A stretch of DNA of 64,000 nucleotides from assembly GCA_963855995.1 (NCBI GenBank), contig OY979716.1:44552480-44616479 (forward strand). Direction: 5' to 3'. Shown one piece after another: positions 15,238 through 54,050 of this stretch (positions are counted from its first letter, which is position 1; the number at the start of each line of letters is the position of its first letter). Origin of the DNA: Muricea muricata. Its lineage: Eukaryota > Cnidaria > Anthozoa > Malacalcyonacea > Plexauridae. The translations under genes were made by a program, and so were the position numbers. Below the pieces are notes generated by a model. The model saw only the letters and a list, made by a program, of their open reading frames with translations. It was not told the origin of the DNA and did no database searches.

Positions 15238-15253
15238 ATACTTACCTGACGCG
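15238..15253 (+). pseudogene. U1 snRNA 5' fragment (nt 1-16)
   Basis: ATACTTACCTGACGCG begins with the invariant U1 5' end that pairs with 5' splice sites. It stops where element A begins. The U1 continuation is seen at 30088 and 38321. Confidence 0.9.
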
Positions 15254-16013
15254 AGTCACTTGTACTCGCGTTCAGTGCCTTCGACCGGGCAGTTGTGGAT
15301 CCATGCTAGGGATTGGAGCCCTTAACACAGCTGTGCCGGATTCAACTAGCTACACCCCCTTCATTGTGCTTGGTGTAGACACTCCATTTCTTACCCTTCT
15401 CGTAGTTTTCTTCCGCTGGGGACAGTCGGGCTGAGGGTTAGCCTCAGTTGGTACGACTGCCAGCACCTCCCATACTTCTTTTCTTTGTCGGTCTCTTCGG
15501 AGATCGGCGGTAGGGTTAGCCTACCTTGTCTTCCGGTGTACCGGCTTAACTGGGCACCTCCCTGCATTTTTTATTGCACACAGTCCACACGTGTATAGGT
15601 AGAGGGAACTAGTTTTTCCGTGGTTGGGCCTGTCGAGTCTGGTGACTCAAAGGTCAGGGCTAACTTTTTTCTGGTTTCTTTGACGCTTTCCTGTTGGGGT
15701 TCTTGGTCCATCTTTTCCTTCAGGTTTTGAGCGCGTCTTTTGTATAGTATTTACGTTAAATACTATACTGGTAGTATTCTATTAAAAGGCAGGAGTAGGC
15801 TGTGTGGAAATCGTACTCGATTGCACAGCGCCTTTTAATAGTAGGTTAGGTTCATTAAGTTTTGTTATTTTTGGGAATTTGTTTTGAATCCAGTTATTTT
15901 CTCTTGTTTTTGTTTTCTTTCTCTACTTTGTTTTGTTAGAGAAAGTGTGTGTTGGAACTGGATATTTTGTATATATTTTCATTCCCTCCAACTTATTTTC
16001 TATCTTAAGAACC
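15254..16013 (+). other. 5' UTR of element A with conserved RNA hairpins
   Basis: The leader opens with a hairpin whose left arm borrows U1 bases (CGCGAGT / ACTCGCG, 15250-15270). It then holds a UUCG-capped hairpin (15490-15505), a palindrome-like hairpin (15742-15768) and the two-tier stem at 15779-15841. A block beginning CCGTGGTTGGGCC and ending TTTTGAGCGCGT is shared by all five elements. No coding sequence is supported before the ATG at 16014. Confidence 0.7.
15779..15841 (+). promoter_or_regulatory. Conserved two-tier RNA stem in element A leader
   Basis: CTATTAAAAGGC (15779-15790) pairs perfectly with GCCTTTTAATAG (15830-15841). Inside, GCTGTG/CACAGC and ATCG/CGAT form a second stem with a GTAC-containing loop. 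Equivalents occur at 23068-23132, 31245-31314, 38991-39058 and 44850-44919. In C and E the outer stem is CTATTAAGGGAC/GTCCCTTAATAG, so both arms changed together. The function is unknown. Confidence 0.75.
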
Positions 16014-18521
16014 ATGGCTACCAGCCAGAACAACACCATAGTAAAAACAGTCTCCTTCTCGGCTGCGGATTTTCAGCGGTGGAATCAGACCACTTCGGTG
16101 GTTACGATTCCACAACGCCTAATAAGATCGAGTAAAATCCCGCAGCTGAGAAAAGAATTAATTCAGTCAATTGGGGAGCGCAGGGTTGCAGCTGTGCAAG
16201 CCTTGTCTCCCTATAAATATCGCGTGGAATTCCGTTATAGTTCCGATCGGCACGCCGCCGACATAAACGGTGTTTCCTTTAGGGGCGTACATTTGCAGCC
16301 CTTACCTGCTTACGAGGAGGTCAAGTCAATTTTTGTCGACCGTGCCCCTCTGCAGATGCAGGACAATATACTTTTTGAGACCTTGGCACCCTACGGGAGA
16401 GTAATCTCCATTCACCATCTTAAAGTGAAGGGCTTCGAGTCCGTTCGCTCCGGCACCCGTAGGGTGTCAATGGTGCTAACAAAGGCCATCCCTGCGAATA
16501 TTAACATCGGGGGCTTTCTGGTGTCCTTCCGTTACCGCGGGCAGCCACCGACTTGTTTCGTGTGCCAGGAGGTGGGGCATACGGGCAAGGGCTGTCCAAA
16601 GTCTCGGCGGGCCCAGAAAGCTGCCCAGCAACAACAACAGCAGGGTGGCAATAATCAGAAAAATAAAAAAGGTCAGGAGGACCTTACAATTAAGATTCAA
16701 GGGTCCGAGCGCACTGTCTCGGCCCTTACGAAGAAACAACAGCAGGTGGATCTCCGTGAAAAGATCGACGCGTCGAGGGCTGCCAAGTTGGCTCCCTCGA
16801 AAGCTGCCGCGTCGAGATCCACCTCGCAAGTAAGCATTACTAAGGAGAAGGAGGTTGACACATTAACGGATCAGTCCTCACAGGGGGCAAAAGCTGAGGC
16901 AGCCAAGGCTGTCCATAGCGTCACGGGCGAGGCTGATCCCATGGATACGTGCTCTCCTCCTTCTCCTCCCAAAGTCAAACGAGAGGCTGGCAAAGCTAAG
17001 GGCCGGTCTTCAAAGGGGGCGGGAGTTAAGGTAACCGCCATGGATCCACGGGATGAGGTTGCCCCTTCCGTCCCTGGCGAGGCTGGTCCGAGAGCAGTCC
17101 AGTCTCTTCGTCATAATAACCCTAAAATATCAACATCTCCCCCGGCTCATCACCTGGCTGCTATTCGCCAGGTGTTCGGCATGTCATCGCCCTCAGACGA
17201 TCTGGAGCCGGGGGAAATTAGAGATTCTGAGCCGGAGACTGATTTCAAGTCTCTGGCTCAACAGGCACAGTCCATCGCCAATGTGGCAACGCTCGCCACG
17301 GCCACACCAGCGTCATTCGCATACAAGGGTTCTGCTCGTCCGAGTAGTTTAAGATCAACTAGGGCCAAGTCGGTCCTAGTTAGCGCACCAGAGCATGTTG
17401 CCTCTGGTGTCGCCCCTCCCTCGGTCGAGCGGTTCTCCTTTACTTTAACGACCGTCTCTGCGTCGTCCACACATGCCAGTGCCTCGAAAGTAACATCAGC
17501 GTGGACAAGGGCATATCAAGGGGCTTCGTGCCCTCCCCCTTGTCCCCCCCGACGGCCTGGCAAATTTAAGACCAACTCGCTGCAGGAGGATGATGACATA
17601 CCCTTAATGCAGCGGTGTAAGGAGCGCAAGAGACGGCGTTTGAATTTACCACCAACGCTGGAGACCGTGGACGAGTGTTTGTCGGGGGCAAGTGTCGTTG
17701 ACCCCCTCAATATGGCCTGCCCTGCTTTATCATCAGTTGGGGGGAGTGAGATGCCGCCAGTCTCCTCCCCTTGGATAAGCCAAACCATCGCTCAGGGTGG
17801 GGAGATGCCGCCGGTCTCCTCCCCTCAGCCTGATTCTGAGGCCGAGGCCATGTTGGTCTCTGACCCAGCCTGCCACACCATCGCATCGGCTGAGGGGAGT
17901 GAGATGCCGCCAGTCTCCTCCCCCACAATAAACACTAATAGCGGATCTGGGGTCACGCTGACCTCCGATCCCACGAATAACATCTCCACTGGACCTGGGG
18001 TCACGTCGACCCCAGACCCAAGTAACTTAATTAATCCTGGTTCTGGGGTCACATTGACCCCAGACCTCACACATCATAATAACAATTTAATTGAGGGGAG
18101 CGAGATTCCGCCAGTCTCCTCCCCTCTATCTCGCTTGGAGACAGAGTCAACGTTGGACTCCCTCTCCTTGTCCTCGAGCGTAGCTGCTGGGGATACCAAC
18201 ATGGGGTGGCAAACGCCACCCCCGTTCCACAGCAGCTCGTTTCCATCGGTGGTGGGGGGAGAGGAGTCACCGTTTGGCTCTGTGCTCTCCACCCCGGAAT
18301 TTTTGCCCTCCCCAGCAACATCAACGGGGAGGTTTGAGGCATTGATCGGTGGGGCCCCTGTGGCCCCCGTGTCCCAGTCGGAGCCGGAGCCGCTGGACAC
18401 GATCGACGCCATTAACAGGGCGATCCTCACCGATCCGCACTGCCTACAGCTTCTCATGGAGCTGCCTGAGCCTTCCTTGGAGTCCAATAATGGATCTCAA
18501 GATCATATCGCTAAACATTAA
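16014..18521 (+). CDS. Element A ORF1: RNA-binding protein with CCHC zinc knuckle
   Basis: An 835-residue protein, probably the nucleic-acid-binding ORF1 protein that packages element RNA. The start is the ATG at 16014 in ACCATGG context. All five elements share this MATS start, although the frame is open further upstream. Residues 13-180 form a conserved region (FSAADFQRWNQTTSVV, then an RRM-like part ending GTRRVSMVL..INIGG..V.YRGQPP), followed by the knuckle C181-x2-C184-x4-H189-x4-C194. The layout resembles ZCCHC3-like and Tx1 ORF1 proteins. The rest is charged and Ser/Pro-rich, probably disordered. It holds conserved islands: SPPAHHLAAIRQVF with LEPGEIRDSE near 385-405, KRRR plus CLSGASVVDPL near 535-560, and four copies of SE(M/I)PPVSSP-type motifs. 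It overlaps ORF2 by 32 bases. Confidence 0.9.
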   Translation: MATSQNNTIVKTVSFSAADFQRWNQTTSVVTIPQRLIRSSKIPQLRKELIQSIGERRVAAVQALSPYKYRVEFRYSSDRHAADINGVSFRGVHLQPLPAYEEVKSIFVDRAPLQMQDNILFETLAPYGRVISIHHLKVKGFESVRSGTRRVSMVLTKAIPANINIGGFLVSFRYRGQPPTCFVCQEVGHTGKGCPKSRRAQKAAQQQQQQGGNNQKNKKGQEDLTIKIQGSERTVSALTKKQQQVDLREKIDASRAAKLAPSKAAASRSTSQVSITKEKEVDTLTDQSSQGAKAEAAKAVHSVTGEADPMDTCSPPSPPKVKREAGKAKGRSSKGAGVKVTAMDPRDEVAPSVPGEAGPRAVQSLRHNNPKISTSPPAHHLAAIRQVFGMSSPSDDLEPGEIRDSEPETDFKSLAQQAQSIANVATLATATPASFAYKGSARPSSLRSTRAKSVLVSAPEHVASGVAPPSVERFSFTLTTVSASSTHASASKVTSAWTRAYQGASCPPPCPPRRPGKFKTNSLQEDDDIPLMQRCKERKRRRLNLPPTLETVDECLSGASVVDPLNMACPALSSVGGSEMPPVSSPWISQTIAQGGEMPPVSSPQPDSEAEAMLVSDPACHTIASAEGSEMPPVSSPTINTNSGSGVTLTSDPTNNISTGPGVTSTPDPSNLINPGSGVTLTPDLTHHNNNLIEGSEIPPVSSPLSRLETESTLDSLSLSSSVAAGDTNMGWQTPPPFHSSSFPSVVGGEESPFGSVLSTPEFLPSPATSTGRFEALIGGAPVAPVSQSEPEPLDTIDAINRAILTDPHCLQLLMELPEPSLESNNGSQDHIAKH

Positions 18522-21500
18522 CGGTCTGAACGACCATCTAAAGCGGACCGCACTGGTAGACTGGCTTAAGTGCATGAAGGTGGACGTGGTGTGCCTCCAG
18601 GAGACCCACTCCCCTTCGCACAAGTCTGCCAGAAGATGGTTCGCTAACAGCGGCTATCGCGTCGCCTCCTCTTCATTAACATCAAAGAGTGCAGGCGTCG
18701 CCATCCTTGTTAAAGACCAATATAAAATCACGAAAATCATCAAGGATGAAGATGGCCGCTACGTTCAGGCCGTTGTGGACTTCGGGGAAGGCCAGGCTAG
18801 TTTTATATCACTGTACGCGCCGAACCGCAACCCGGCGCGTAACGTATTTTTCGCCAGTCTAACTGGCTTGATTGACTTGTCTCGGCCAACCTTTGTGGCC
18901 GGTGACTTTAATGCAGTCTTGGATCCTGCTAAGGATAGGATGAGAGATCCATCATATGTTGCTGGGCCTGCTGGCCAGCAACGGGAAAGCATCCCTGCGT
19001 TGGAGTCCCTCATGTCGTTCACGCAAACCTACCCCGTGTGGCGCCAATTACATCCAGGGTGCACGGCGTATTCATGGACGCACGGGGATGGCACCCAGGC
19101 GTCGCGGATCGACATGGTGTGGGCTCCAACAGCAATGAGCAACAACATCACAGGGTGTGAGTACCACCCGTCCTTTCTGTCTGACCACCAATATTTATTG
19201 GTGGAATTTTCACTCAACCAACAATTTGACTCGGGGCCGGGGGTGTGGAAGCTGAACGCTTCGCTCCTCCAGGACCCCGAGTACCTTAATTTAATTAATT
19301 CGTTCTGGTCCCACTGGCAGTCCATGGAAAATCACGCCGATTTTCCATCCCTGATGGACTGGTGGGACCAGGGCAAGTTCTATTTGAGAGAGGTCTCCCG
19401 AACATTCGAGCGTGCAAAAGCCGCCGACAAACGCGGCAGGAAGGCCTCTCTCACCAAAGAGATGCACGCCCTTAAAGAGGCGTTTGATCGGGGGGATCGA
19501 ACGGCCTTCACACGCCTGTGCGCAGTCCAGCAGGAGTTGAGAGACATCGCTCTGTACGAGGCCAAAGGGGCCCAGGTTCGTGCCCGCTGTCAGTGGGCAG
19601 AGGAGGGAGAGACATCCTCCTCTTACTTCTTGAACCTGGAGTCGAAACATCATGCCCGGCAGACGATGTACTCGATACGCGATCCTGCAACTGGACTGGT
19701 CCGCCACGACCCATTTGAGATCTTGGGGGTCTGGCGGGCGTACTACGACACTTTATTTACCGCACAGGTGTGTGATCCCATCGCTCAGGACACCATGCTC
19801 TCTCAGCTGACACGTCGCTTGAGTCAGGCTGAGAGGGCTGGTTGCGAGGGGTGTCTTACCGTTGCCGAGTGCTGGGCCGCCCTTTCGGGCATGCCTCACG
19901 GTAAGACACCCGGGTCGGACGGTCTCCCTATGGAGTTTTACAAAACCTTTTGGCAGTCCCTCGGTGCTGATCTGGTCCGTGTCCTCAATGCAGCTTTTGA
20001 GGCCGGCCAGCTTTCCACCTCTCAGCGCCGGGGGCTGATAATAGTCTTATATAAGAAGAACGACCCTCTCGACACCAAGAACTGGCGCCCCATTAGTTTA
20101 CTTAACGTAGACTACAAAATCGCTACGAGAACTATTTCGGGGCGCCTTCTTGGTGTCATGTCAAGCATAATTGGTCCAGACCAGACGTGTGGCGTCAGGG
20201 GTCGGACCATTAGTGAAAATCTCGCCGGGGTGCGAGATCTATTGGAGTATGTGGAGCGGGAAGATATCCCCCTCGCCCTTCTCTCTCTCGATCAGGAGAA
20301 GGCCTTCGATCGCGTCGATTGGGGATTCCTGCTCCGCATACTCGAGACGTTTAACTTCGGGCCCCAGTTTTGCAACTGGGTCCGTCTATTTTATACGGAC
20401 ATCCAGTCAGCTGTCATCATAAATGGCTGGATGTCCTCGTTTTTTCACCCCACTAGGGGTGTGCGCCAGGGGTGCCCTCTGTCTCCTCTATTGTACGTCC
20501 TCTCCATCGAAGTGCTGGCGGAATGCATTCGTGCATCTCCGGCCATTGAGGGCGTGACCATCCCCCACTCGGTGGAGGGGTACAAGTGCTCCGGCTACGC
20601 GGACGACACTACCGTAGCCGTCACTACAGAGCGGTCAATAGAGGAGACCTTCTCAGTTTATTCCAACTACGAGAGGGCCTCTGGCGCCCAATTAAATAGG
20701 GGCAAGTCGAAAGCTATGTGGGCTGGTTCCTGGAAGGATCGCACCGATACCCCGTATGGGTTACAGTGGGTAAAACAACTGCCACTGCTCGGTGCGACCT
20801 TCAGCGTTGGTGATTACACCACCCCAACGTGGGAGCCAGTCGTCTCCAGCTTGGAGACTCGGCTTGCCTCGTGGTCCGGGCGACAGCTGTCTTTTCAGGG
20901 GAAGGCAGTTGTCATAAACACCCTAGCACTATCACAGATTTATCACTTGTGTCACGTTTTCCCCATACCAGGTTGGGCGGGGAAGCGCATCGATAAAGCC
21001 GTGTGGACCTTCTTTTGGTCAGGCAAACGTGACCAAGTGGCCCGGACCACCGTAACTCTCCCCAAAGCACAGGGTGGCTTTGGGGTCAACAATTTTCGAC
21101 TGAAAGCCGAAGCATTCGCGCTGCAGTGGCTCAAACGTTTTTTCGTGTCTTCCGACGGGCGTTGGAAGACCTTTTTTGTTTATTTTTTTCAATCCACTTT
21201 TCATTTAGAGCCACGCAGCGCTCTTTTAACAGCCCAGCCTCGTCGCCTTTTACGTTCTTTGCCCACGTTCTATCAGCTTCTGTTCAGGGTATGGCGGGCC
21301 CTGGATGGGGGTGTGATAGTGGGTAGCGACGAGCTGGGCATTAGGGTATCTTCTGACGACCCAACCAACATCTCGCAGCTCACCTCGAGACGCACGTACA
21401 CCCTCCTACGGGCACACAATTACAAGGAACCCCATTGTATCACGAAATTCCATCCCACCTACGGTCCCTTGCACTGGCCCGAGACATGGCGCCAGTTGCA

Positions 21501-22044
21501 CATTTGCGATCTGGACCGTAAGGTGGTCGATCTCAGTTGGCAGATCGCACATGGGGTTCTTCCTACCGGTGCCCGTTTGGCCATCAAGTTTGGAATGCGT
21601 GGAGTCGACAGTCGTTGTTTTTGTGCGACTGCCGACGAGACGCTCGAACATCTCTTCTTTGAGTGCGAGCTGGCTCGCCTCTTGGTGGCCTGGGTGTACA
21701 TGTATTTACATTCTATCAACCCAACCGCTGGTCGGTTTACGGTTGATGAGCTGCTCTTTGGGTTTTCGGAAGCTCGTTGTCGGGCAATCCCTTCCATCTT
21801 TATTTTCATGCTGATGGTCATGAAACATGCCATTTGGGTTGCTCGGTGCGACTTTCGATTTCGTCAGAAGGTACCCATCGCTTCGAATCTGTTACATATA
21901 GCCATTCGGCGTATTAAATTTACTTTAAATTTATTATTTAAGCGGTGCAAGTCTCCTGCTCAAATTCGCGCGTTTGAGCGGGAGTGGCTTGGCCGCGGTT
22001 CTTTGGGGCACTTGGAGGGTCCGGACCTTGTCTTTTCCTTCTAA
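18490..22044 (+). CDS. Element A ORF2: APE endonuclease / reverse transcriptase, intact
   Basis: A 1184-residue protein that nicks target DNA and copies element RNA (target-primed reverse transcription). I place the start at the ATG at 18490 because MDLKIISLNINGLN is the expected APE N-terminus and B and C start at the same point. Earlier in-frame starts lie inside ORF1. APE residues are present: N9/N11, E38 (LQETH), Y109, GDFN 138-141, RID 206-208 and SDH 231-233. The RT covers about 472-800, with LYKKNDPLD..NWRPISLL, catalytic Asp 601 (SLDQEKAFDR), GVRQGCPLSPLL and YADD 703-706. A C-terminal CFC-x7-H-x4-C motif is typical of L1/Tx1 ORF2. All catalytic positions are intact. It lies in the +1 frame relative to ORF1. 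It is a candidate active enzyme for U1 targeting. Confidence 0.93.
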   Translation: MDLKIISLNINGLNDHLKRTALVDWLKCMKVDVVCLQETHSPSHKSARRWFANSGYRVASSSLTSKSAGVAILVKDQYKITKIIKDEDGRYVQAVVDFGEGQASFISLYAPNRNPARNVFFASLTGLIDLSRPTFVAGDFNAVLDPAKDRMRDPSYVAGPAGQQRESIPALESLMSFTQTYPVWRQLHPGCTAYSWTHGDGTQASRIDMVWAPTAMSNNITGCEYHPSFLSDHQYLLVEFSLNQQFDSGPGVWKLNASLLQDPEYLNLINSFWSHWQSMENHADFPSLMDWWDQGKFYLREVSRTFERAKAADKRGRKASLTKEMHALKEAFDRGDRTAFTRLCAVQQELRDIALYEAKGAQVRARCQWAEEGETSSSYFLNLESKHHARQTMYSIRDPATGLVRHDPFEILGVWRAYYDTLFTAQVCDPIAQDTMLSQLTRRLSQAERAGCEGCLTVAECWAALSGMPHGKTPGSDGLPMEFYKTFWQSLGADLVRVLNAAFEAGQLSTSQRRGLIIVLYKKNDPLDTKNWRPISLLNVDYKIATRTISGRLLGVMSSIIGPDQTCGVRGRTISENLAGVRDLLEYVEREDIPLALLSLDQEKAFDRVDWGFLLRILETFNFGPQFCNWVRLFYTDIQSAVIINGWMSSFFHPTRGVRQGCPLSPLLYVLSIEVLAECIRASPAIEGVTIPHSVEGYKCSGYADDTTVAVTTERSIEETFSVYSNYERASGAQLNRGKSKAMWAGSWKDRTDTPYGLQWVKQLPLLGATFSVGDYTTPTWEPVVSSLETRLASWSGRQLSFQGKAVVINTLALSQIYHLCHVFPIPGWAGKRIDKAVWTFFWSGKRDQVARTTVTLPKAQGGFGVNNFRLKAEAFALQWLKRFFVSSDGRWKTFFVYFFQSTFHLEPRSALLTAQPRRLLRSLPTFYQLLFRVWRALDGGVIVGSDELGIRVSSDDPTNISQLTSRRTYTLLRAHNYKEPHCITKFHPTYGPLHWPETWRQLHICDLDRKVVDLSWQIAHGVLPTGARLAIKFGMRGVDSRCFCATADETLEHLFFECELARLLVAWVYMYLHSINPTAGRFTVDELLFGFSEARCRAIPSIFIFMLMVMKHAIWVARCDFRFRQKVPIASNLLHIAIRRIKFTLNLLFKRCKSPAQIRAFEREWLGRGSLGHLEGPDLVFSF

Positions 22045-22453
22045 GTGTCTCTCTTCCCTCTTTTTCTTCTTTTTAACCTTCTTGGTGGTATCCCGGTGCT
22101 ATCTTCCATGGTGCACCGTCCATGTATATATATATAGATAGGCATAATACAAGTACACATAGATAATTACACACACATATATATACATTTTTTAACTTTT
22201 AGTTATTTTAATTTTCGGGGTTTATAGCGCTATTTATGTTCCACGAATTATATGTTGTTTTCTGCCTTGTTTTCTGTCCCGTTCGTCAGAGTGTTGTCGT
22301 GTCCATTAGCGCTAAATGTGTGCTTAACAGGCATTTAGTCGGGGTTGGGGCTCGACTCCCCAGTTGTTTTGCGTGTGGGTACACACCCCGAAATTCGGCA
22401 TGCCATTGCACAATCCCTCAATCGGGACGGCAATGTCGAATTTAGAAGTATAA
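22045..22453 (+). other. 3' UTR of element A
   Basis: Non-coding, with a TA/CA-rich patch at about 22125-22190. Hairpins follow: CTAAATG..CATTTAG at about 22314-22339 and GGGGCTCGACTCCCC at about 22348-22362, then CCATTGCAC and CCCTC..GGGACGG at the end. The last 130 bases are shared with elements B-D and are probably what the RT recognises. Confidence 0.65.
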
Positions 22454-22557
22454 ACTTACCCAACCAAGGAGAAACATGCAAATTAGAGTGCTGACAGAAC
22501 CACGTCCGTTTCCATTCTTGGCTGAATAAAACGTGAGTGCCTGCGCTCAACAAACTC
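22454..22557 (+). promoter_or_regulatory. U1 snRNA promoter copy 2
   Basis: The octamer is at 22476-22483 and the PSE-like block starts at 22502. The U1 start is at 22558. The 207 bases from 22454 to 22660 are identical to 15134-15340, which points to recent exchange or duplication. Confidence 0.75.
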
Positions 22558-22573
22558 ATACTTACCTGACGCG
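22558..22573 (+). pseudogene. U1 snRNA 5' fragment (nt 1-16)
   Basis: ATACTTACCTGACGCG lies directly before element B. Its bases 3-16 recur as the direct repeat at 29452-29465 after B. Confidence 0.9.
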
Positions 22574-23316
22574 AGTCACTTGTACTCGCGTTCAGTGCCT
22601 TCGACCGGGCAGTTGTGGATCCATGCTAGGGATTGGAGCCCTTAACACAGCTGTGCCGGACTCTACTAGTTATACCCCCCATTGTGCTTGGGTATAAACA
22701 CGCCACACCGCTTTCCCTTCTTGTAGTTTTCTTCCGTTGTTCAGTCCGGCTGAGGGCATAGCCTCAGTTTGTCCGACTGGCAACAAATCCCCCTCTTTTT
22801 CTTGTCTTAACCAGTTCGCTGGTTCTTCCGTTGTTCCTGACTAGCAGGGCAACTCCCTCCATTTTTGCACATAGTGTAAATACATTTTAGGTAGAGGGTA
22901 CTAGTTTTTCAGTGGTTGGGCCGGTCGAGCCAGGTGGCTCAAAGGTCAGGGATCACTTTATTTCTGGTTTCTTTGTCGCTTCCTGTTGGGGTTCTTGGTC
23001 ATCTTTTACCTTCAGGTTTTGAGCGCGTCTTTGATAGTATTTGCATTTTGTAAATACTATCGGTAGCCTATTAAAAGGTTTTTAGTTGTCTGTGGGTCAA
23101 TTGTACGCAATTGCACCGGCGCCTTTTAATAGTAGGTTCTTTTAGTACTTTTTGTTTAAGTACTAAGTTTTTTGTTTTTGTTGCTTTTGGGAATTTGCTT
23201 GTTTTTGATCCAGTAATTTCTTGTTTATCTCTAAAATTATTTAGAGAGTGTGTGTTGTACTGGATCTTGTATATAATTTTTCTATTAATTCCCTTCTTTA
23301 CCATCATACAAGAACC
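22574..23316 (+). other. 5' UTR of element B
   Basis: Its first 87 bases are identical to element A. It contains the hairpin AACCAG-TTCG-CTGGTT (22809-22824), a stem around GATAGTATTT..AAATACTATC (about 23033-23061) and the conserved outer stem at 23068-23132 (CTATTAAAAGG / CCTTTTAATAG). Non-coding. Confidence 0.65.
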
Positions 23317-25542
23317 ATGGCTACCAGCCAGCAAAATAATAATAACACTAGTCCTCATGATAATAACAACATTACAAAGTTCTCGGCTGCGGACTTCCAA
23401 AGATGGAATCAAACCACTTCGGTGGTGAACATTCCATCCCGTATAGTCAAAACATCGAAGATCCCGCAGTTGAGAAAGGAACTGATTGATGCCATTGGGG
23501 TGCGCAAGGTCACTGCAATACAAGCCTTGTCCCCCACGAGATATAGGATAGAATATCGTTATTCATCAGATCGGCATGCTGCCGATATAAATGGCATTGC
23601 TTTTCGGGGTATTCAACTAACCCCCCTTCCTGCGTACGAGGAAGTTAAGTCCGTTTTTGTGGATCGAGCTCCCCTACAAATGCAGGACCAATATTTATTC
23701 GACACCTTGGCGCCCTACGGTCGGGTCATTTCTATTCAACATCTGACGGTGAGGGGTTTTCCTTCCGTTAAATCCGGCACGCGTAGGGTGTCAATGGTGA
23801 TAACTAAACCCATCCCTGCCAATATAAATATAGGTGGTTTTTCGGTGTCCTTCCGTTACCGAGGGCAGCCACCGACCTGTTTCATGTGCCAGGAGGTGGG
23901 GCATACGGGCAGGGGCTGTCCGAAGTCGCGGAGGGCCCGGAAATCTGCCGAAAATAGTAAAAACGATGTTAACAACAACAATACATCCAGGGATGATAAC
24001 AACACTAGTAAACCTTCAACTACAGCTAATCTGAAGGTTCGATCTGATGGCCAAACACGGGTTGTCACGACAACCAAGCCATCCTTACAAAAGTCAGAGG
24101 AAGACTTAAGAATGAAATTAAACGCTAAACGGGCGGCTAAAGCCGCACCTAAAGACCAGGTGGCAATCACTGCCCCAATAGATCTTCCTCTTCAACAAGA
24201 AATAGAGACTGATGAGCCACAGAGTCAGCACATGCAACAAATAGGTGAGGGTAACGCTGTCGAGCCTCAGGCTGAGGCCACTTCCTCTCTTGCTCCTGTG
24301 GCCTTAATGGAGATTGAATCTTTTCCGTCTCCTCCAAACAGACGGTCCCGTAGTGCCAAAGGCGAACGATATACAAGGTGGGACGGGAAGCAGGCAGTCA
24401 TAACATCACCGACTGTCGCTGCTCCTTCCTCCCCAGAATTGAACGGGCCAGGAACCAGCTCTATTTCTACTTCTCCTCCTGCTGCCCATCTGGCTGCGTT
24501 GCGCCAGATGTTTAATCTTCCCCCGAAATCGGCGCAATCTGAGTTAGGAGATGTTCCTTCTTCCTCAGCTGAGGACCAATTCGAAGTACTGGCACGGCGA
24601 TCTCAATCCGCTGCTGGCCAAGAGGCCACTTGTACAACTTCCTTTGTACGTAGTCAATCCATCACCCGAGCATTTTACCGGGAACGGCTACTATGCACAT
24701 ATACTGTGCCAGCTACTCCCTCTTTCTCTTTTGATGCACGCATGGCATTTACTGCACCTACAGCAAAGCCTATTAAATCGGCCAAGCACCGTTCCTTTGG
24801 AGCGAAGGCTTTGCTATGTGATACGGACACTGACCTCGATAACATCTCGCTGGCGGAGCGTCGCCGCCGAAAACGTCGTCGTCTCACCGAGCCCGTGCCA
24901 TCAGACGACGTAGACTCTTGTCTGACAGGATCGTCAGTTGTAGATCCACTCCTTCATCTGGAGCGATTACCTCCTCTTCCCTCCTCACCCACGTTGGCAA
25001 CTTCTGCGGTTGCCTCGCGAGATCCATCTGTACCATCTAGTGAGGAAGTTACAGTAGAAGTCCTTGCAGAAGGGTATGCGCCTTGGGCGTCAGCCCAACC
25101 TCATTCCTCCCCTCTGCCTAATCCCAATAACCAAAAGGACTTTTCTGCCACCACAACTAATATATACAGTATGACTGTGGAGAGTGAGTCCCCGCCAGGC
25201 TCCTCTTCTCAGTCGACTAATAGAATGAATAATAATATATCTGCTGAGAGTGAGATTCCGCCAGTCTCCTCTTTAGCTATAGTGCCTTATCATGACAAAG
25301 ATAGTCATGATAAAAATAATGATATAAATTTAGGGAGTGACACTCCACCAGTTTCCTCCTCTTCCAATTATGGTACAAGTCATCTTGCACCTATCTCCCC
25401 TGCTCCTCCTCGTGTGGAGGCAGGTGCTGTTACTGATGCCAATGCGTCATCTAGTTCGCCGGAATCGCTTCGCGATACCGGAGCCCCGCAGTTAATGTTT
25501 CCAACATTGCCTGTTTTTCATTTCTTAGAAAATGAATTTTAA
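23317..25542 (+). CDS. Element B ORF1: RNA-binding protein with CCHC knuckle
   Basis: A 741-residue ORF1 protein starting at the conserved ACCATGG (MATSQQNNNN). It shares the FSAADFQRWNQTTSVV block and the RRM-like region. The knuckle is C188-x2-C191-x4-H196-x4-C201. The knuckle is followed by an Asn-rich linker, the SPPAAHLAALRQMF island, RRRRKRRRL with CLTGSSVVDPL, and the ESEIPPVSS / GSDTPPVSS repeats. It lacks the LEPGEIRDS motif and the TIDEINRAIL motif present in A and C. The C-terminus overlaps ORF2 by 11 bases. It is open and possibly still functional even though ORF2 is dead. Confidence 0.88.
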   Translation: MATSQQNNNNTSPHDNNNITKFSAADFQRWNQTTSVVNIPSRIVKTSKIPQLRKELIDAIGVRKVTAIQALSPTRYRIEYRYSSDRHAADINGIAFRGIQLTPLPAYEEVKSVFVDRAPLQMQDQYLFDTLAPYGRVISIQHLTVRGFPSVKSGTRRVSMVITKPIPANINIGGFSVSFRYRGQPPTCFMCQEVGHTGRGCPKSRRARKSAENSKNDVNNNNTSRDDNNTSKPSTTANLKVRSDGQTRVVTTTKPSLQKSEEDLRMKLNAKRAAKAAPKDQVAITAPIDLPLQQEIETDEPQSQHMQQIGEGNAVEPQAEATSSLAPVALMEIESFPSPPNRRSRSAKGERYTRWDGKQAVITSPTVAAPSSPELNGPGTSSISTSPPAAHLAALRQMFNLPPKSAQSELGDVPSSSAEDQFEVLARRSQSAAGQEATCTTSFVRSQSITRAFYRERLLCTYTVPATPSFSFDARMAFTAPTAKPIKSAKHRSFGAKALLCDTDTDLDNISLAERRRRKRRRLTEPVPSDDVDSCLTGSSVVDPLLHLERLPPLPSSPTLATSAVASRDPSVPSSEEVTVEVLAEGYAPWASAQPHSSPLPNPNNQKDFSATTTNIYSMTVESESPPGSSSQSTNRMNNNISAESEIPPVSSLAIVPYHDKDSHDKNNDINLGSDTPPVSSSSNYGTSHLAPISPAPPRVEAGAVTDANASSSSPESLRDTGAPQLMFPTLPVFHFLENEF

Positions 25543-38458: not shown

Positions 38459-38514
38459 ACTTGCCACTGATTGGTCTTGGTTGAATAAAAAGGGTAAACT
38501 AGAAGTAATTAAGG

Positions 38515-45068: not shown

Positions 45069-46083
45069 ATGGCTACGAGCCTGAACATAACTACAAATAT
45101 GCATAATAACACCAACACATATGCAAATGCCAGCAAAACCAACATCAATGCTGGCACGAATATGAAATTTATGGCTGCGGATTTCCAGCGTTGGAATCAA
45201 ACCACTTCGGTGGTCCATATTCCATCGCGTCTTATTAAAAACAGCAAGATTCCGCAGCTTAGAAAAGAACTAATCAACGCCGTTGGGGTGCGCAAGGTTT
45301 CTGCTGTGCAGGCCTTGTCGCCCATCAAATATCACATACAATATAAACATTCTTCGGACCGGCACGCCGCCGAGATCAACGGCATTAGTTTATGAGGCGT
45401 GCATTTAATGCCATTGCCTGCATACGAAGAGGTCAAGTCGGTCTTCGTTGAGAAGGCTCCTCTTCACATGCAGGACAATTACTTATACCAAGCATTGGCA
45501 CCCTACGGACGCGTTATTGGCGTCCAACATTTAACTATTAAAGAATTTCCATCCGTGCGATCAGGCACACGCAGGGTGTCAATGGTCGTGACCAAGGCCA
45601 TCCCACGCACCATTAACATCGGGGGATTTCCCGTCGTTTTTAATTACCGTGGGCAGCCCACGCAATGCTATGTATGTCAGGAGGTGGGACATGTGAGCAA
45701 GGACTGCCCAAAATCAAGACAGTGGAGGAAATTACAACAACAACAACAACGACAACAACGACAACAACGACAACAACGACAACAACGACAACAACGACAA
45801 CAACGACAACAACGACAACAACGACAACAACGACAACAACGACAACAACGACAACAACGACAACAACGACAACAACGACAACAACGACAACAACAACAAA
45901 ACCTGCCCAAAGTGACGGGAAAGCAAAGTGCTCAAAATAACATCAAACAGAGCAAAAATAAGGCAAATACAAACAAGCCAGCCTTAGGTCACGACGACCT
46001 CACAATAAAACTGGACGGTGCTAAGCACACCGTCCAGACAACACAAAATAAAAAGAAGTCTCCGTTGGGGGAGACAGATCTAG
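45069..46083 (+). pseudogene. Element E ORF1, N-terminal part
   Basis: It starts at CCATGG (MATSLN). A TGA at 45393-45395 replaces the Arg of AFRGV, giving an early stop; the same frame then continues through the RRM-like part. The knuckle is CYVCQEVGHVSKDC. A 9-bp repeat expands the post-knuckle Gln run to about 55 residues. The LTR insertion at 46089 cuts the ORF. Confidence 0.87.
45735..45899 (+). repeat. (CAACAACGA)n microsatellite in element E ORF1
   Basis: About 17 units of CAACAACGA encode QQR repeats after the zinc knuckle. Element C has only a six-Gln run here. The Cys-rich antisense frames over it are artefacts. Confidence 0.95.
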
Positions 46084-46088
46084 GAAAT

Positions 46089-46201
46089 TGTGGTGTATGC
46101 CCCATGATGCATTGGGGACCGATCACCACGAGGCTGTAGTGCTCATATTTGTCAATTTGTAGTTCGAGACGCTGAACAAAAATATATTGAAGAACACTAC
46201 A
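46089..46201 (+). repeat. 5' LTR (113 bp)
   Basis: It begins TGTGGTGTATGCCCC and ends AACACTACA (TG..CA). It is very short for a gypsy LTR and contains CCCCA..TGGGG and GTGGTG..CACCAC inverted pairs. Confidence 0.95.
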
Positions 46202-46254
46202 CTGGCGACGAGGATGGGATTATAAACAATTGATTATGGCTTCAAGTCACAGAA

Positions 46255-47525
46255 ATGGCGTCTAAGCTTGAAGTGACACAAAATAAAGCGATGAATTCGA
46301 TCGGTAAACTAGAAGAATTTGATGAAACACACGGCGATTGGACTGCATATATAGAAAGAGTTGAACAGTATTTCCTTGCAAATGATGTAGACGATGAGAA
46401 AAAAGTTCCAGTTTTGTTGACAGTAATCGGATGTAAGACGTATAGTTTTATTACGGACATTAACCTCCCCTGACAAACCTTCGACCAAATCATTTGAAGA
46501 GATAGTGGCAATCTTACAGGGGCATTTGTCGCCCAAGCCCCTACTGATCGCAGAACGATTTAGATTTCACAAGCGGAAATATTAATACATATGTGGCTGA
46601 AATTAAAAAGTTATCTGAACATTGTGAGTTTGGTACAGCGTTAAGTGACTCGTTAAGAGACAGATTTGTTTGCGGACTACACAATGAATCTATTCAGAAA
46701 CGCTTACTTGTCAAAACCAGCCTTACGTTTGAGAAAGCACTAAAACTCGCGGTTGCCATGGAAACGGCTATGAAAGATTCAGTTGAGCTAAGGGGAAAAA
46801 CCAAGTCAGAACCTCCTGTGAACAGTATTCATGAAGCCCCAATGCAACATAGATGTTATAGATGTGGGAAAGAGGGGCATGAACCCCAAGAATGCTACTT
46901 TAAAGATCAATACTGTCGAAACTGTGGAAAAAAGGGGCATGTAAAACGGGTATGTAGGGGGAAACCAATTAAACAAAATTCCCCTGCCAAGCCACATTCA
47001 AGCAAGAAAAAGCAGCAACCGCGGGTACATAAAGTTCAAAACCAAAGCGATAGCGATAGCGAGGACACCTTGGCATCCTTTGAATTGCACAAGGTTTCCA
47101 AAGCCCACACTAATATAATCTGGGTCACCCCTGAAGTGGACGGGAAACCCCTTCAGATGGAATTAGACACTGGCTCGGCTGTATCTGTCCTTCCACTTAG
47201 TAAATATACTACAATGTTTAAGTCAAGCAAACTCCACCCAACAAACACTGTTCTTAAAACTTACACTGGGGAGAAAATCCAACCCATAGGAGTCTTGGAT
47301 GTCCAAGTCAAATATAAAGAAGAGATGCAAAAGCTAAGTTTGTATGTTGTCGAAACAAAGGGGCCTGCCCTGTTTGGTCGAGACTGGTTAGAAAAGATCA
47401 CATTAGATTGGATTGGAAAGCAATCAACACTTTGGCAACCACATCCCTGGGAAATCCATCAACTCGATTACAAGAGATCCTCGATAAGTATGGTGATGTT
47501 TTCAAGGAAGACATTGGTCTGCTAA
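46255..47525 (+). pseudogene. gag and protease region of the LTR element
   Basis: An ATG at 46255 opens a 72-codon gag start that is cut by a frame change near 46470. The frame 46593-47525 continues gag with two zinc knuckles (CYRCGKEGHEPQEC and CRNCGKKGHVKRVC) at about 46855-46965. It then gives an aspartic protease with the active-site LDTGSAVSVLP at about 47163-47195. The order and spacing fit a gag-PR fusion of Mag-like gypsy elements. At least two lesions lie before the protease. Confidence 0.88.
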
Positions 47526-50227
47526 AGACGACCAAAGCAAAGCTGGACCTGAAAGAAAACAGCCAACCGAAGTTCTGCAAAGCAAGACAAGTACCATATG
47601 CTCTACGACCGAAAGTTGAAGCAGAGTTGACCAAGTTGCAGAAAGGTGGAATTTTGACCAAAGTCAATTGGAGTGAATGGGCAACCCCAGTTGTTCTAGT
47701 AATAAAGAAGAATGGGAATGTTTGCCTGTGTGGTGATTTTAAGCAAACCATCAATCCAGTCTTGCACGTACAACAGTACCCTCTCCCAAGAATTGATGAT
47801 ATTTTTGCCTCTCTCGAGGTGGGCAAAAGTTCAGCAAGATTGATCTACGACAGGCATATTTACAGATGGAAATGGAAGAGGAGTCAAAGAAATTACTAAC
47901 AATTAACACTCATAAAGGACTATTCCAATACAATCGGCTTGTATTCGGTGTAGCATCTGCCCCTGCAATCTGGCAACAAGCTATGGATCAGATATTGGAA
48001 GGAATCCCCCATGTGCAATGTATCCTTGATGACATGATCATTTCGGGTGCAACTGATCAAGAGCATCTGGACAACCTAGAAGAAGTTCTCAGCCATCTTA
48101 GTCAACATGGACTGAGAGCCAACAGCAGTAAGTGCGAGTTCTTTAAAGAAAGAATTGAGTTCTGTGGTCATGAGATCAGCAAGCTTGGTCTACACAAGTC
48201 CCAACAGAAAGTGGATGCTGTACTAAATGCACCACGTCCTGAGAATGTGTCCCAAGTTCGTTCCTTTGTCGGTCTCATCAATTATTACCACAACTTCCTT
48301 CCAAACCTTTCCACTTTACTCCAACCATTAAACCAGTTGCTCGAAAAAAATAGACGGTGGAAATGGACCTCGGAATGCGAGCAAGCTTTTTTGAAAGCAA
48401 AGGAATTAATTGCATCTGAGGAAGTTCTTGCACATTATGACCCTCAACGCCCAATCAAGTTAGAATGCGACGCTTCCCCATATGGGTTGGGGGCAGTTTT
48501 AACACAAGTCATGGATGATAATACTGAAAGGCCTATAGCTTATGCTTCAAGATCCCTGACAAAAACTGAAAAACATTATTCTCAGATAGATAAAGAAGCC
48601 TTGGCATTAAGTATGGGGTGTAAAGAAATTCCATACATACATATTTGCACGACATTTCACCCTGCAAACAGACGATAAACCATTGACAGCAATTTTCAGT
48701 CCAACCAAGGCTATACCAGCAACAACTGCGGCTCGTCTCCAGCGATATGCTCTGTTCCTTTCAGGTTTTGACTATGAGATTGAATACCGTAGTTCAACAA
48801 GGCATTGTAATGCAGATGGATTGTCTCGTCTACCCCTAGCAACAACTGAAAACGAAGAAAGTCAGTCTGTTGACCCTGTTGATGTGTTTCACGTGTCACA
48901 GTTCAACATGTTGCCTGTCACTTGCCAGCAGGTACGCAAAGAAACCCAACGAGATTCTACTCTCATCCTAGTATATGAGCATGTCATGAAAGGCTGGCAT
49001 GAAGATAAAGACCCCAACCTGGGACCATTTTATTCTCGAAGAAACGAATTGACCGTACATCAAGGATGTATTATGTGGGGGAGCAGAGTTGTCATTCCCA
49101 CAAAGTTACGAAGCGAGGTACTTCACGTATTACATGAAAGTCATGTGGGTGTGGTCAGAATGAAAGCTTTGGCAAGAAGCTACGTCTGGTGGCCAGGAAT
49201 TGATCTAGAGATTGAAAGGCTAGCGAAAGGATGCAGTGGTTGTCAGCGGGTACAACATGCCCCCAAATGTTCCCCCTTACACCCATGAGAGTGGCCATCT
49301 ACCCCTTGGCAACGTATCCACATTGATTTTGCAGGACCATTTCTTGGAATGATGTTCTTAGTGGTTGTTGATGCTCATTCGAAATGGCCAGAAGTAATAA
49401 TCATGCACTCTAAAACTACCACCTCCAAAACAGTTGAAGCCCTGCAAACAGTGTTTGCACGAAATGGGCTACCAGAACAACTTGTCAGCGATAATGGGCC
49501 ACAATTCACTTCTGAAGAATTCCAACTATTTCTAAAGAAAAACGGAGTTAAACACACAACATCAGCACCGTACCATCCAGCAACGAACGGTTTAGCAGAA
49601 AGATTCGTCCAAACCTTTAAACAATCTCTGACATCTATGAAGGAAGACCCTGGCTCCACGCAAGCCAAACTTTCTAAATTCTTAATGAAATATAGAAACA
49701 CGCCACACAGCACAACCGGTGAAACACCTGCAACTCTCTTCATGGGACGAAACTTACGAACACGGTTAGACTTGATCAAACCAGATATTCGGAAGCATGT
49801 TCTCGACAAACAAACCAGCCAAGCCAAACAAAACAGTGCTATTGCTAGTAACACACGTCAACTATTTGTTGGGCAGGCAGTGAGCGTCAGAGATTACAGA
49901 GGGAAGGAAAAGTGGATTCAAGGAATTGTGCGTGCTCGGACTGGACCAGTGTCATACCAGGTGGAGGTTGCACCAAATGTTATCTGGAAGAGACACATCG
50001 ATCAGTTACTTGCCTCAGAGAACAATCGTGATTTCCAACCAGTTACAGATATTCCAGCCTTGGTTAATGAAAGCAATGCTGCAGGGGAAACACCAGTGGA
50101 CATGCAAGACCAACAAGAGACTCCAGAACCAAATCAAGAAATGGATGAAGAGGAACAACCTCGTCCTGAGCAACGATATCCTAGCAGAATTCGACAGGAA
50201 CCAATTAGACTAGGACACAATAGTTAA
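47408..50227 (+). pseudogene. pol (RT, RNase H, integrase) of the LTR element
   Basis: Four open segments make one pol. 47408-47899 holds the RT start (TPVVLVIKKNG, QYPLPRIDDIF). 47866-48678 holds FGVASAPAIWQ, the active site ILDDMIISG, and the RNase H LECDASPYGLGAV. 48683-49288 holds the end of RNase H and the integrase HHCC finger (H-x3-H..C-x2-C). 49349-50227 holds the DDE core: VDAHSKW, SDNGPQF, and NGLAERFVQ with the Glu. Frame changes lie near 47410, 47820 and 48640, and a TGA at 49286-49288 replaces a Trp codon. It cannot encode active enzymes. Confidence 0.9.
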
Positions 50228-50346
50228 AACAGTATATAGAGTATGTATAGGGTGCGAACATATATGGACGCCATAAAAACATTGATATTTGTTAACCAGG
50301 TCTTATTCTTAAGATAAAAGGACAACAATGCTTACGTGGGGAGAGA

Positions 50347-50459
50347 TGTGGTGTATGCCCCATGATGCATTGGGGACCGATCACCACGAGACTGTAGTGC
50401 TCATATTTGTCAATTTGTAGTTCGAGACGCTGAACAAAAATATATTGAAGAACACTACA
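50347..50459 (+). repeat. 3' LTR (113 bp)
   Basis: Identical to the 5' LTR except GAGACTG for GAGGCTG. It is followed by GAAAT, the target duplication. Confidence 0.95.
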
Positions 50460-50464
50460 GAAAT

Positions 50465-52180
50465 AAATTAAATAAAAAGCAGGAGACCATGTTAAAATCT
50501 TCGGAGACAGAACAGGCTCCTGCTTCTAAATCTCTCCCAACCAAATCGAAGGCTGGCCGTGCCAAAGGCCAGTCATTGTCAAAGGGCCAATCGAGTGTTA
50601 CTGATGACGTGATTGTAGACGAGGTCGCTCGATCCCCCAAAGCCGTGGCTGAGTTGGACACTCAGCCTTCAAAAGAGACTTCTTTAGTATTAGCATCAAC
50701 ATCACCTCCGGCTCAACATCTTGCAACTTTACGCAAGATGTTTAACGTTCCAACACCATCGGACGACGAATTAGAGCCGGGAGAAATACGAGACTCATCA
50801 TCCATCCAGTCAATGGATGATGAGAGATCTTCGGATCACGCTGATCCGAAGACCAAACTGGATGGTGCTACCAAAGCCATCCAGTTAAAGAGTGAGGCTG
50901 ACAGTCCAATTGAGAGTTCAGTCTCACTCGACCTCAACACCTCTGACTCAGCAACTTAAACAACTAAGATCGCAATTTAATATGCCCACAACATCGGCTA
51001 GCGAGTCAGAGGGAATCACAGAGGCAGATTTCGCGGCCAGTATCATCGAGGCCGAACAACAGGCTGCTGCGAAATCTGGCCCAGTTCGCACTGCTGTGCG
51101 AACAATCACAACGCTACGGGTTCGTACGCGCCGAAGTGGCCATTCTCAGGCAAAAACACCAGCCACAATAACATCAACAACAACCTCTCGATCGAGCTCC
51201 ACGATCACAACATCGACGTGGACAAAGCCGACGGGGGGTAGAGCTAAGGTCACTGCAACACAGGCAGAGATAGATAGGGACGATATTCCCCTCGCCGTGT
51301 TGCGTACGAACAAGCGACGCCGCCTCAACTCCAAAACTCCTCCAGATGAGGAACTCGACTATTGTCTTTCGGGGTCATCAGTCATCGACCCCCTTGCTAT
51401 CGAGTATTGGCAAACAACGCCAATTTCTTCCTTCGGGCAAACACCATCGTTGCCCGCATTAGAGGCGCGAAGTGCTACATCAGATGTAGCACTCCAACAA
51501 CAACAACAACAACAACAACCAGCTGAGGATTTGCCATTAGTCCCATTGGATAGGACACTGGCAATCCCAGCAACAGCGCCGGTCGTGACAACATTGGATG
51601 TTGCACGACCAGAGCCAGAGGTCATGCTCGACCCCATGGCAACGCCCTTAGAGGCATTAATGCAAGAGAAGGAAGAAATCCTCATACAAGTTAGAGAGGA
51701 AGGGGAGGTGTCTTGGGCCTCCGAGGTCACATCTGACCTACGAGGTACCCCTCCCCTAATAGGAGTTGAGATAGGGATCTTGGAGCCCGGTGAAATCGGC
51801 CCAGATCCCTCATTAATTTAGGACCTGCTAGTGGTTCCAATATCGCCGCCAGGGGGGAGATGACGCCGATCTCCTCTCCTGTGCCAATAAACACGCTGGT
51901 CTTTTATAGACCGTCAGTTGATGGGGACGAGTCGCCGCCAGGCTCGGTTGCCTTGTCAACTGATTTTTTGCCTTCCCCTGCTTCTTCGCAGGGGTTGCTC
52001 GATCGTTTGGTGTGCGGCGCACCTGTTAACGCCATTGAATCTGCGCACGAGCCCACCACCATCGACGAAATTAACCGGGCACTCCTTACGGAGTTGTCCA
52101 GTCCAGAGCTCCCTCTCTCACCGGAGTTTTTACCCCCATCACTTGAATCAAACGACGAATTTGATTTCAGTCAACATTAA
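50465..52180 (+). pseudogene. Element E ORF1, C-terminal part
   Basis: Continuation of ORF1 after the LTR insertion. Frame changes occur near 50920 and near 51822. Conserved islands remain: SPPAQHLATLRKMF with LEPGEIRDS, TNKRRRLN with CLSGSSVIDPL, GDESPPGS, TIDEINRALL, and the FDFSQH end at 52180. Confidence 0.87.
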
Positions 52181-53804
52181 CGGATTAAACGATCATACCA
52201 AGCAAACCGCACTGGTAGATTGGTTAAAATGCATGAAGGCCGATGTCGTGTGTCTACAAGAGACGCACACCCCTTCACATGAATCTGCCAGGAAGTGGTT
52301 CGCAAATAGCGGCTATCGCGTCGCCTCCTCTTCCTTTACATCAAAGAGTGCAGGCGTCGCCATATTAGTAAAAGATACCTATAAGATCTCTAGGATCATT
52401 AAAGACGATCATGGCCGCTTTATTCAAGTTTTGGTTGATTTTGGGGAGAATCAATTAAGTTTTGTCTCGCTATACGCTCCCAACACCAACCTGGAGCGAA
52501 ATCGTTATTTTACATCATTAACAGACTTAATTGATCTATCGCGCCCCGTCTTTATTGGGGGCGACTTTAACTCCATTCTCCATCCAGAAGTGGATAGAAT
52601 GAGAGATCCCTCTCACGAACCTAATCGCATTGCGCACAGGCGTGAGAGTGTCGCTGCATTGGAGTCGCTCATGTCATACACACAAACATACGCGCTATGG
52701 CGTCAATTACATCCAGGACGCATAGCATATTCGTGGACGCACGGATCGGGTGATCGTGCGTCGCGAATCGACATGGTGTGGGCTCCAACAGTTATGGCTG
52801 ACTCGATTGAGGAATGCGAATACCACCCGTCATTCCTCACAGACCATCAATATCTTTTGGTCAAATTCCATCTTTTGCCAAAGATAGACTCGGGCCCAGG
52901 AGTGTGGAAATTCAATACATCCCTCCTGAAAGATCCCGAGTACGTCAGCCTGGTGAGCTCTTTCTGGTCCCATTGGCAGTCCCTTGAACATCACGAGGAT
53001 TATTCCTCCCTTATGGACTGGTGGGACCAGAGTAAATTTTATTTGAGAGAGGTTACACGGTCTTATTCTCGTTCGAAAGCTGCCGACCAACGCAGCAAGA
53101 AAACCTCTCTCACACGCCAAATGCATCAGTTGAAAAGATCGTTCGACCAGGGGGATCGAACTGCATTTGGCAAATTATGCGAAGTCCAGCAGGAATTGCG
53201 AGGCATCGCTCTGCACGAGGCACGAGGGGCACAGGTGCGCGCTTGGTGCCAATGGGCCGAAGAAGGAGAGACTTCGTCTTCCTTCTTCTTGAACTTAGAA
53301 ACACATCACAAAACCCAACAGACGATGCACTCTATACGCGATCCAGAGACTGGACTCGTACGCCACGACCCATTTGAGATCCTGGGTGTGTGGCGCTCGT
53401 ATTATTCGAACCTGTTTACGGCACAGATTGCGATCCTGTTGCGCAAGACGAAATGCTCTCTCAGTTACAGCGTCGTCTGAGTACGGCCGAGAGAGCTGGC
53501 TGCGAAGGCAATCTTACCCTTGATGAGTGTTTTGAAGCTCTCAAGGGTATGCCTAAGGGAAAAACCCCAGGTTCGGATGGCTTCCCAATGGAATTCTACC
53601 AAACATTGTGGCAAACCCTTGGCACCGATCTGGTCCGAGTCCTCAATGCTGCGTTTGAGGCCGGCCAACTCTCCACCTCACAGCGCCGGGGTTTGATTAT
53701 CGTTCTTTATAAGAAGAACGATAAACTGGACACCAAGAATTGGCGTCCGATTAGTCTCTTGAACGTGGATTATAAGATCGCCACTAGGGCTATATCTGGA
53801 CGAT
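52155..53804 (+). pseudogene. Element E ORF2, start codon lost, truncated in RT
   Basis: The position of the ORF2 ATG in element C reads ACG here (52155-52157). APE motifs follow intact (INGLND, LQETH, YAPN, GGDFNSIL, SRIDMVWAP, TDH). One G is missing near 53425 compared with C, shifting the frame. Reading continues through LYKKNDKLD..NWRPISLL to ISGRL, then stops being element sequence at about 53804. The catalytic RT Asp and YADD are gone. Confidence 0.9.
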
Positions 53805-54049: not shown

Positions 54050-54050
54050 A

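Follow-up and report, generated by a model that had tools for sequence, protein, structure and literature searches.

A 64,000-nt stretch of the octocoral Muricea muricata genome (contig OY979716.1, C1 below; C1:44552480-44616479), hereafter the window, carries five long interspersed nuclear elements (LINEs), A to E. Their junctions make it very probable that they represent non-long-terminal-repeat (non-LTR) retrotransposons specific for octocoral U1 small nuclear RNA (snRNA) genes, with two modes of insertion, one duplicating 14 bp of the target and the other the U1 promoter. In layout they are site-specific non-LTR retrotransposons of the L1/Tx1 type, with a first open reading frame (ORF1) and a second (ORF2) that holds an apurinic/apyrimidinic endonuclease (APE) and a reverse transcriptase (RT). 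They combine a LINE-type RT and endonuclease with a constant insertion point and defined junctions and duplications. Genome-wide searches covered the 453-Mb assembly (74 contigs), and reversed sequences or patterns served as controls for motif and junction counts. COX1 of contig C74, translated with code table 4, agrees with an octocoral host: its identity is 92-97% to five octocoral records (Coelogorgia, Ellisellidae, Protoptilum, Cornularia and Leptophyton), as against 84% to the best matches from sea anemones and zoanthids. Coordinates of the window features are collected in Table 1.

Elements A, B and C start directly after ATACTTACCTGACGCG (exact at 15238, 22558 and 30664), E after a mutated form and D after a degenerate form of it, as a first-pass annotation of the window had described. 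Further copies with 1-3 mismatches stand at 29450, 29768, 30086, 38014, 38319 and 44265. The search for exact and 1-3-mismatch forms thus gave nine matches in the window, compared with a mean of 0.41 in 100 shuffles, none of which reached nine. The string ACTTACCTGACG follows B and C, also as described. The annotation had placed the cleavage sites at U1 nt 16 on the top strand and nt 2/3 on the bottom strand, with a 14-bp duplication; this stands for B and C but not for A and D, which use an upstream site and duplicate the whole promoter. It had also reported U1 at both 30088 and 38321. The latter lies in a U1 copy (38319-38455) that scores 94 bits, whereas the former is not a gene, because it is the head of a SINE (short interspersed nuclear element)-like unit (U1 nt 3-91, 98% over 89 nt), scores 50 bits against an Rfam cut-off of 69.5 and lacks the part of U1 with the Sm site.

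The specificity for U1 extends across the genome. The 14-mer ACTTACCTGACGCG occurs 189 times (56 forward, 133 reverse), and its reversed control does not occur. The 5' joint ACTTACCTGACGCG/AGTCACTTG was found 67 times in exact form and the 3' joint ATAYAA/ACTTACCTGACG at the U1 site 61 times, LINE and SINE tails taken together, with no match to either reversed pattern. With the 3' end of B as query, 40 of 94 candidates were scored as B/C-like 3' ends: 32 at the U1 site, 2 at a mutated U1 site, 4 at the upstream site and 2 off-target, that is, 38/40 at U1 or its promoter. Thirty-four of the 40 abut U1 nt 3, corresponding to the 14-bp duplication. B-like tails (ATATAA) made up 23 of the 40, including all four upstream ends, and C-like tails (ATACAA) the other 17, with none upstream. 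The two off-target ends (C1:44476928, ACTTTCCTCC; C10:5442595, ACTTGTCTTATACC) both lie at sites that begin with ACTT. A tabulation of the copies' flanks had been named beforehand as the test of U1 specificity, and U1 or U1-promoter sequence does flank most of the copies scored genome-wide rather than being mostly absent.

The 3' ends of the A family lie at a different point. In the uninterrupted host unit on contig C16, a U2-U1 tandem repeat of 1634 bp (Rfam scores of 141.9 bits for U1 and 59.5 bits for U2, which is partly masked), CTCATACTTACC stands on both sides of the U1 promoter; the downstream copy ends at U1 nt 9, and the other lies further upstream. The spacing of the two motifs is 106-129 bp, varying by U1 variant. 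In the window, A and D are followed not by the 14-bp string but by ACTTACCCAACC, which precedes a second U1 start by 106-109 bp. Because the 3' end of A adjoins this upstream motif, its duplication measures 120 bp; it includes what we take to be an octamer (ATGCAAAT) and a proximal sequence element (PSE)-like motif (CCACGTCCGTTTCCATTCTTG). Querying with the 3' end of A, 40 of 91 candidates were scored (53 rows). The last base was reached in 25 rows, of which one was a B-type copy already in the B set and 24 were A-type. All 24 lie at the second ACTTACC motif, 106-129 bp upstream (18 exact, 6 decayed), and none of these scored ends is at the U1 site; in the most decayed flank (C1:71797789), nothing is left but the promoter and a U1 start that is mutated. 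The difference in site between families is strong (24:0 vs 4:34, Fisher's test, 2e-13), with the reservation that the copies are not independent. The exact upstream joint has 30 matches, 22 in U1 clusters (18 with A-type and 4 with B-type tails) and 8 elsewhere, against 7 for the reversed pattern. The 5' ends seen in the A family remain at U1 nt 16. Since the 3' end is upstream, the duplication spans 120-143 bp and contains the whole U1 promoter. In the window, the insertion of A apparently duplicated 120 bp, and the U1 start rebuilt in this way is the one that B occupies.

The five elements fall into three diverged families (A/D, B and C, the last including E). ORF2 identities are 92% for A-D, 75% for A-C, 75% for A-B and 73% for B-C, B and D being compared as fragments. 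Both long frames are open in A and C, and ORF2 of B is broken into several frames in the window. In A and C, ORF2 contains Exo_endo_phos (APE-type endonuclease) and RVT_1 domains, with zf-RVT also above the cut-off in A, and the closest solved protein to A ORF2 is L1 ORF2p (E = 4e-83; R2 only 9e-14). Elements of the Tx1 clade have an ORF1 with a zinc knuckle and an ORF2 with an APE endonuclease. Both traits are present here, so far as a comparison of features shows: the CCHC knuckle of C ORF1 scores 22.0 bits (cut-off 20.8), with A (14.7) and D (15.1) below the cut-off. Relatives of ORF1 and ORF2 include Paramuricea clavata records, and no named Tx1 sequence was among the best 120 of 1722 matches. 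The N-terminal part of C ORF1 is predicted to form tandem RNA recognition motif (RRM)-like domains followed by the zinc knuckle (pLDDT, the predicted local distance difference test, 76.9; predicted template modelling score, pTM, 0.49). We considered this part as a binder of AUUGCAC and rejected the idea: the model resembles tandem RRMs generally, such as those of HuR and NONO (template modelling scores by query length of 0.25-0.33 among the best 50 matches listed), with nothing specific to U1A.

In the 5' untranslated region (UTR), all five LINEs carry a long hairpin bounded by CTATTAA/TTAATAG (15779-15841, 23068-23132, 31245-31314, 38991-39058 and 44850-44919). Its stem shows a compensatory change from one family to another: A and D have AAAAGGC/GCCTTTT, where C and E have AAGGGAC/GTCCCTT. 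Two candidate U1A boxes in this region of B and D (ATTGTAC...ATTGCAC) were rejected because CAATTG self-pairs there and C and E are without the boxes. The LINE ends, inspected by eye only, gave no convincing match to the 3' box of snRNA genes.

The LINEs have no terminal poly(A). From 46 junctions we obtained 28 distinct 75-nt tails. In 21 of these an exact ATTGCAC is present, and in both LINEs and SINEs it begins 44-49 nt before the 3' end. Among all 14 distinct LINE tails of this set the loop is conserved, 93.8% of cells are paired and 6 of the 15 stem pairs are changed on both sides. Covariation reached 0.296 compared with 0.137 in shuffles (0/500) and at most 0.095 in slid controls. This comparison is biased towards the structure, which was read from the same related sequences that were scored, and the changes may go back to a small number of independent events. 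The SINE tails, having different stems, stood outside this set. When the tails are folded singly, the box is unpaired in the minimum-energy structures of A, B and D, and several such folds are no better than those of shuffles.

U1A contacts AUUGCAC together with the closing C-G pair and also binds an internal-loop version (PMC2203988), and bound U1A blocks polyadenylation (PMC9977717). Placed between two helices, AUUGCAC would correspond to the U1A/SNF recognition loop, and we infer that U1A may bind the LINE tails; such binding may draw the RNA into the U1 pathway or prevent its polyadenylation. Two points count against U1A binding: 7 of the 28 tails are without the exact heptamer (6 are one base off, and 1, at 44739651, is unrelated there), and the predicted folds pair part of the box in C and in the SINE tails, which lowers its odds. 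Alternatively, the hairpin may be no more than the stem-loop by which the RT recognises the 3' end, resembling a U1A site by chance or through descent from U1. This account has a little better than an even chance: recognition of the element's own 3' tail is reported for some LINEs (PMC4176376), and both the constant position of the box and its partial pairing are consistent with it. However, the loop is an exact U1A heptamer closed by C-G, the element that carries it lies in U1, and the stems vary while the loop stays constant.

In the mechanism that we propose, the endonuclease would nick the bottom strand at GGTAAGT/ATGAG, a sequence complementary to the U1 5' end and hence similar to a 5' splice site, and complementary DNA (cDNA) synthesis would be primed on the tail of the LINE's own RNA. 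B/C-type elements would mostly nick inside U1, where the 14-bp duplication would sever the U1 body from its promoter. For the A family, the 3' end would join the upstream motif copy and the 5' end U1 nt 16, so the element would lie between two full U1 promoter copies; the one before the LINE would drive it, and the other would stand before the rebuilt U1 start. The 5' joint would likely be fixed because the LINE RNA starts at U1 +1, its cDNA ending in U1 nt 1-16 and annealing there; alternatively, the second cleavage may always fall at nt 16/17. Whether these steps amount to a low-harm entry into an essential gene, with an upstream nick, a duplicated promoter, a rebuilt U1 start as a fresh target, and an unpolyadenylated U1A-loop RNA guided into the U1 small nuclear ribonucleoprotein pathway, is doubtful, and we offer it as a tentative proposal.

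The flanks of individual copies bear on the promoter-duplicating mode. The two flanks of A in the window are identical (120/120), and the nearest other of the 26 copies compared has 10 differences. The flank pair C16:6379242 to 6372342 matches at 138/138 positions, and beyond it lie an uninterrupted U1 start and a U1 body that is 97% similar to that in the window; identical flanks are expected here under any local origin because the promoter is that of the array unit. The flanks at C16:6172173 and 6179197 are 141/142 identical, three C1 pairs (45749/45742, 45803/45795 and 45844/45851) differ by 1-2 of 124, and the C16 pair 6200649/6214958 shares a CGCCCAAC variant unseen in the other copies compared. 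Promoter variants track the locus, not the LINE family.

Several observations weigh against a promoter-duplicating insertion. Only the pair of window A is clearly closer mutually than to other copies: the 138-bp pair on C16 is the same as the array unit, and the three C1 pairs are no closer than other copies of their cluster. Two C16 pairs are mismatched in length, 6200649 (138 bp) against 6214958 (134 bp), which are separated by two LINEs, and 6259598 (142 bp) against 6266622 (134 bp). An uninterrupted U1 start follows only 2 of the 22 exact upstream joints (C16:6372342 and C1:45688621), the remainder being followed by another LINE (16/22, some with a mutated start), a SINE (3/22) or a truncated promoter (1/22); as 16 lead into another LINE, the rebuilt U1 seems mostly to have become the next target. 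It should also be noted that array copies are not independent, owing to tandem duplication and gene conversion, so there will have been fewer insertions than the junction counts suggest.

Long promoter duplications could also arise, without insertion, if a LINE at the U1 site and another at the upstream site underwent unequal exchange. Tandem arrays with many similar copies make exchange likely, the two length-mismatched flank pairs (4-8 bp) would fit it, and promoter copies of one cluster are about as similar to each other whether or not they flank an element. However, exchange requires ordinary upstream-site insertions, and no 5' joint of that kind was found (exact form, 0-8 spacer bases); A-type tails are absent from the U1 site (0/24), and the C16 copy with 138/138 identical flanks stands between uninterrupted units. 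We therefore consider exchange unlikely. Still less probable is that ordinary LINE remnants were amplified with the U1 array by segmental duplication, with no site-specific activity. The regular spacing near 7.3 kb in the C1 and C16 arrays would suit this, but three families at 72-75% ORF2 identity share one 5' joint, single insertions occur among uninterrupted U1 units, and A and C keep both long frames open. Least credible is a U1 promoter that travels as part of the mobile element, with no long target duplication: the promoter or its remains follow the 3' end of each A-type copy examined and often precede LINE starts, but A-type tails that are 98-100% identical adjoin promoter variants of 120, 124, 133, 142 and 143 bp, the flanks of window A match perfectly, and uninterrupted C16 U1 units share their promoter with the C16 flanks.

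The site is shared with SINEs. A headless unit and a U1-headed unit use the same sites as the LINEs and have similar tails, the U1 head running from nt 3 to 74 or 91 at 98% identity. With the same sites and the same box, these SINEs appear to be mobilised by the LINEs.

Uninterrupted U1 starts number 72 genome-wide, by the criterion of an exact 25-mer of the start only, and 71 of them are on C16. The interval C16:6451073-6513687 holds a run of such starts at intervals of mostly 1.64-1.68 kb, in which the 5'-junction search matched no exact LINE start; its units are slightly longer from about 6478640. In three places (window 38319-38530, C1:45072536 and C1:45113975) a U1 copy runs directly into a D-type LINE start whose promoter is decayed. 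The U1 variant start ATACTTCCTGGCGCG directly precedes D-type starts at C1:45466724, 45537222, 45544494 and 45551756, which accounts for the degenerate form before D and suggests a diverged U1 lineage as the target.

Several known mobile elements offer comparisons. R2 and R1 are site-specific LINEs in 28S genes that use the transcription of the host gene; their target differs, and in the elements described here the duplication rebuilds the promoter and start of the host gene. SINEs with snRNA-derived heads are reportedly known as SINEU. The U1-headed SINE is like them in its head, and here it also lies at the U1 site and has an AUUGCAC tail. Keno, a Tx1-clade LINE, targets U2 rather than U1, and we know of no promoter-duplicating mode for it. 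Like the present elements, Keno is an APE-type LINE in a spliceosomal snRNA gene, found in frogs, fish, lancelet and hydra (PMC4640811). Utopia is likewise specific for an snRNA gene, but it has a restriction-like endonuclease, a site at U2 nt 39 and duplications of 0 or 20 bp (PMC4640811), whereas A and C are APE-type. Dada-U1 is also a mobile element inside U1 genes, with the sub-terminal repeats GTGCAAT and ATTGCAC, but it is a DNA transposon at another U1 site with a proposed 6-bp duplication, GCGAAT/GCGAAC (PMC3706591). The accessible text of the 2015 paper names only Keno, Utopia, Dada-U1 and Dada-U6 as mobile elements of snRNA genes (PMC4640811). This agrees with the first-pass view that no U1-specific LINE is known, and none was found in the literature searched, a search that Repbase, Dfam and most subscription journals lay outside.

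U1, the RNA that reads 5' splice sites, would join the list of LINE targets. How snRNA-specific LINEs survive has been posed as a question (PMC4640811). Our findings suggest that a parasite of a low-copy essential gene could persist if it duplicates the promoter and rebuilds the start of the gene rather than only disrupting it. Site-specific LINEs able to restore their target would also be of interest for gene insertion, and the AUUGCAC tail provides a simple, testable link from a retrotransposon to a spliceosomal protein.

Table 1 Features of the window, in window coordinates
Feature	Position	Strand	Evidence
R2-like LINE ORF, 1541 aa, upstream of U2 fragment, separate element	9104..13729	+	Best solved match R2, E 9e-48
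U2 snRNA sequence resuming at about nt 39 (assumed numbering)	14437..14600	+	Rfam RF00004, 82.5 bits for 14410-14600
5' copy of 120-bp duplication of A: upstream site ACTTACCC, U1-type promoter, U1 nt 1-16	15134..15253	+	120/120 identical to 22454-22573
LINE A, 7.2 kb; ORF1 frame 15888-18521, ORF2 frame 18346-22044 (APE, RT, zf-RVT)	15254..22453	+	Open frames, domain matches, L1 ORF2p E 4e-83
A 3'-tail hairpin, ATTGCAC at 22405-22411, unpaired in predicted fold	22395..22439	+	Folding, covariation
3' copy of A's duplication: putative rebuilt U1 promoter and start, then LINE B	22454..22573	+	Sequence comparison
LINE B, ORF2 in several frames	22574..29451	+	Frames, domains, junctions
B 3'-tail hairpin, ATTGCAC at 29404, unpaired in predicted fold	29394..29438	+	Folding, covariation
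14-bp duplication ACTTACCTGACGCG after B	29452..29465	+	Sequence
Headless SINE-like unit, ATTGCAC-bearing tail	29466..29769	+	Sequence comparison
Second headless SINE-like unit	29784..30087	+	Sequence comparison
U1-headed SINE: U1 nt 3-91, body, ATTGCAC tail; 3' end at apparent decayed upstream site	30088..30545	+	98% to U1 over 89 nt; Rfam 50 bits
Decayed upstream site, U1-type promoter, U1 nt 1-16, before C	30546..30679	+	Sequence comparison
LINE C, 7.3 kb; ORF1 31468-34062 (zinc knuckle), open ORF2 frame 34013-37573	30680..38015	+	Frames, domains
C 3'-tail hairpin, ATTGCAC at 37968, partly paired in minimum-energy fold	37958..38002	+	Folding, covariation
Duplicated ACTTACCTGACG, then truncated headless SINE	38016..38320	+	Sequence
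U1 snRNA copy with ATTGCAC loop, Sm-like site	38319..38455	+	Rfam RF00003, 94.4 bits
LINE D of the A family; ORF2 92% identical to that of A over 805 aa; 5' flank degenerate	38530..44157	+	Sequence comparison
Upstream site, U1-type promoter, mutated U1 start, after D	44158..44280	+	Sequence
LINE E, C family, interrupted, cut off within RT	44281..53804	+	Sequence

The U2 beside the parasitised U1 seems to be parasitised too, since an R2-like LINE precedes U2 sequence that resumes at what we take, from our numbering of U2, to be about nt 39, the position used by Utopia; a Utopia-like element thus seems to sit in the neighbouring U2 of the window. Right after the break in LINE E, the window (53805-55856) contains repeats of 99% identity, 246 bp (53805/54331) and 331 bp (54047/55526) long, which suggest a recent insertion or duplication there. 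Elsewhere on the contig, a nuclear copy of mitochondrial COX1 lies at C1:38414782-38416095, with one TAA stop in the matched frame.

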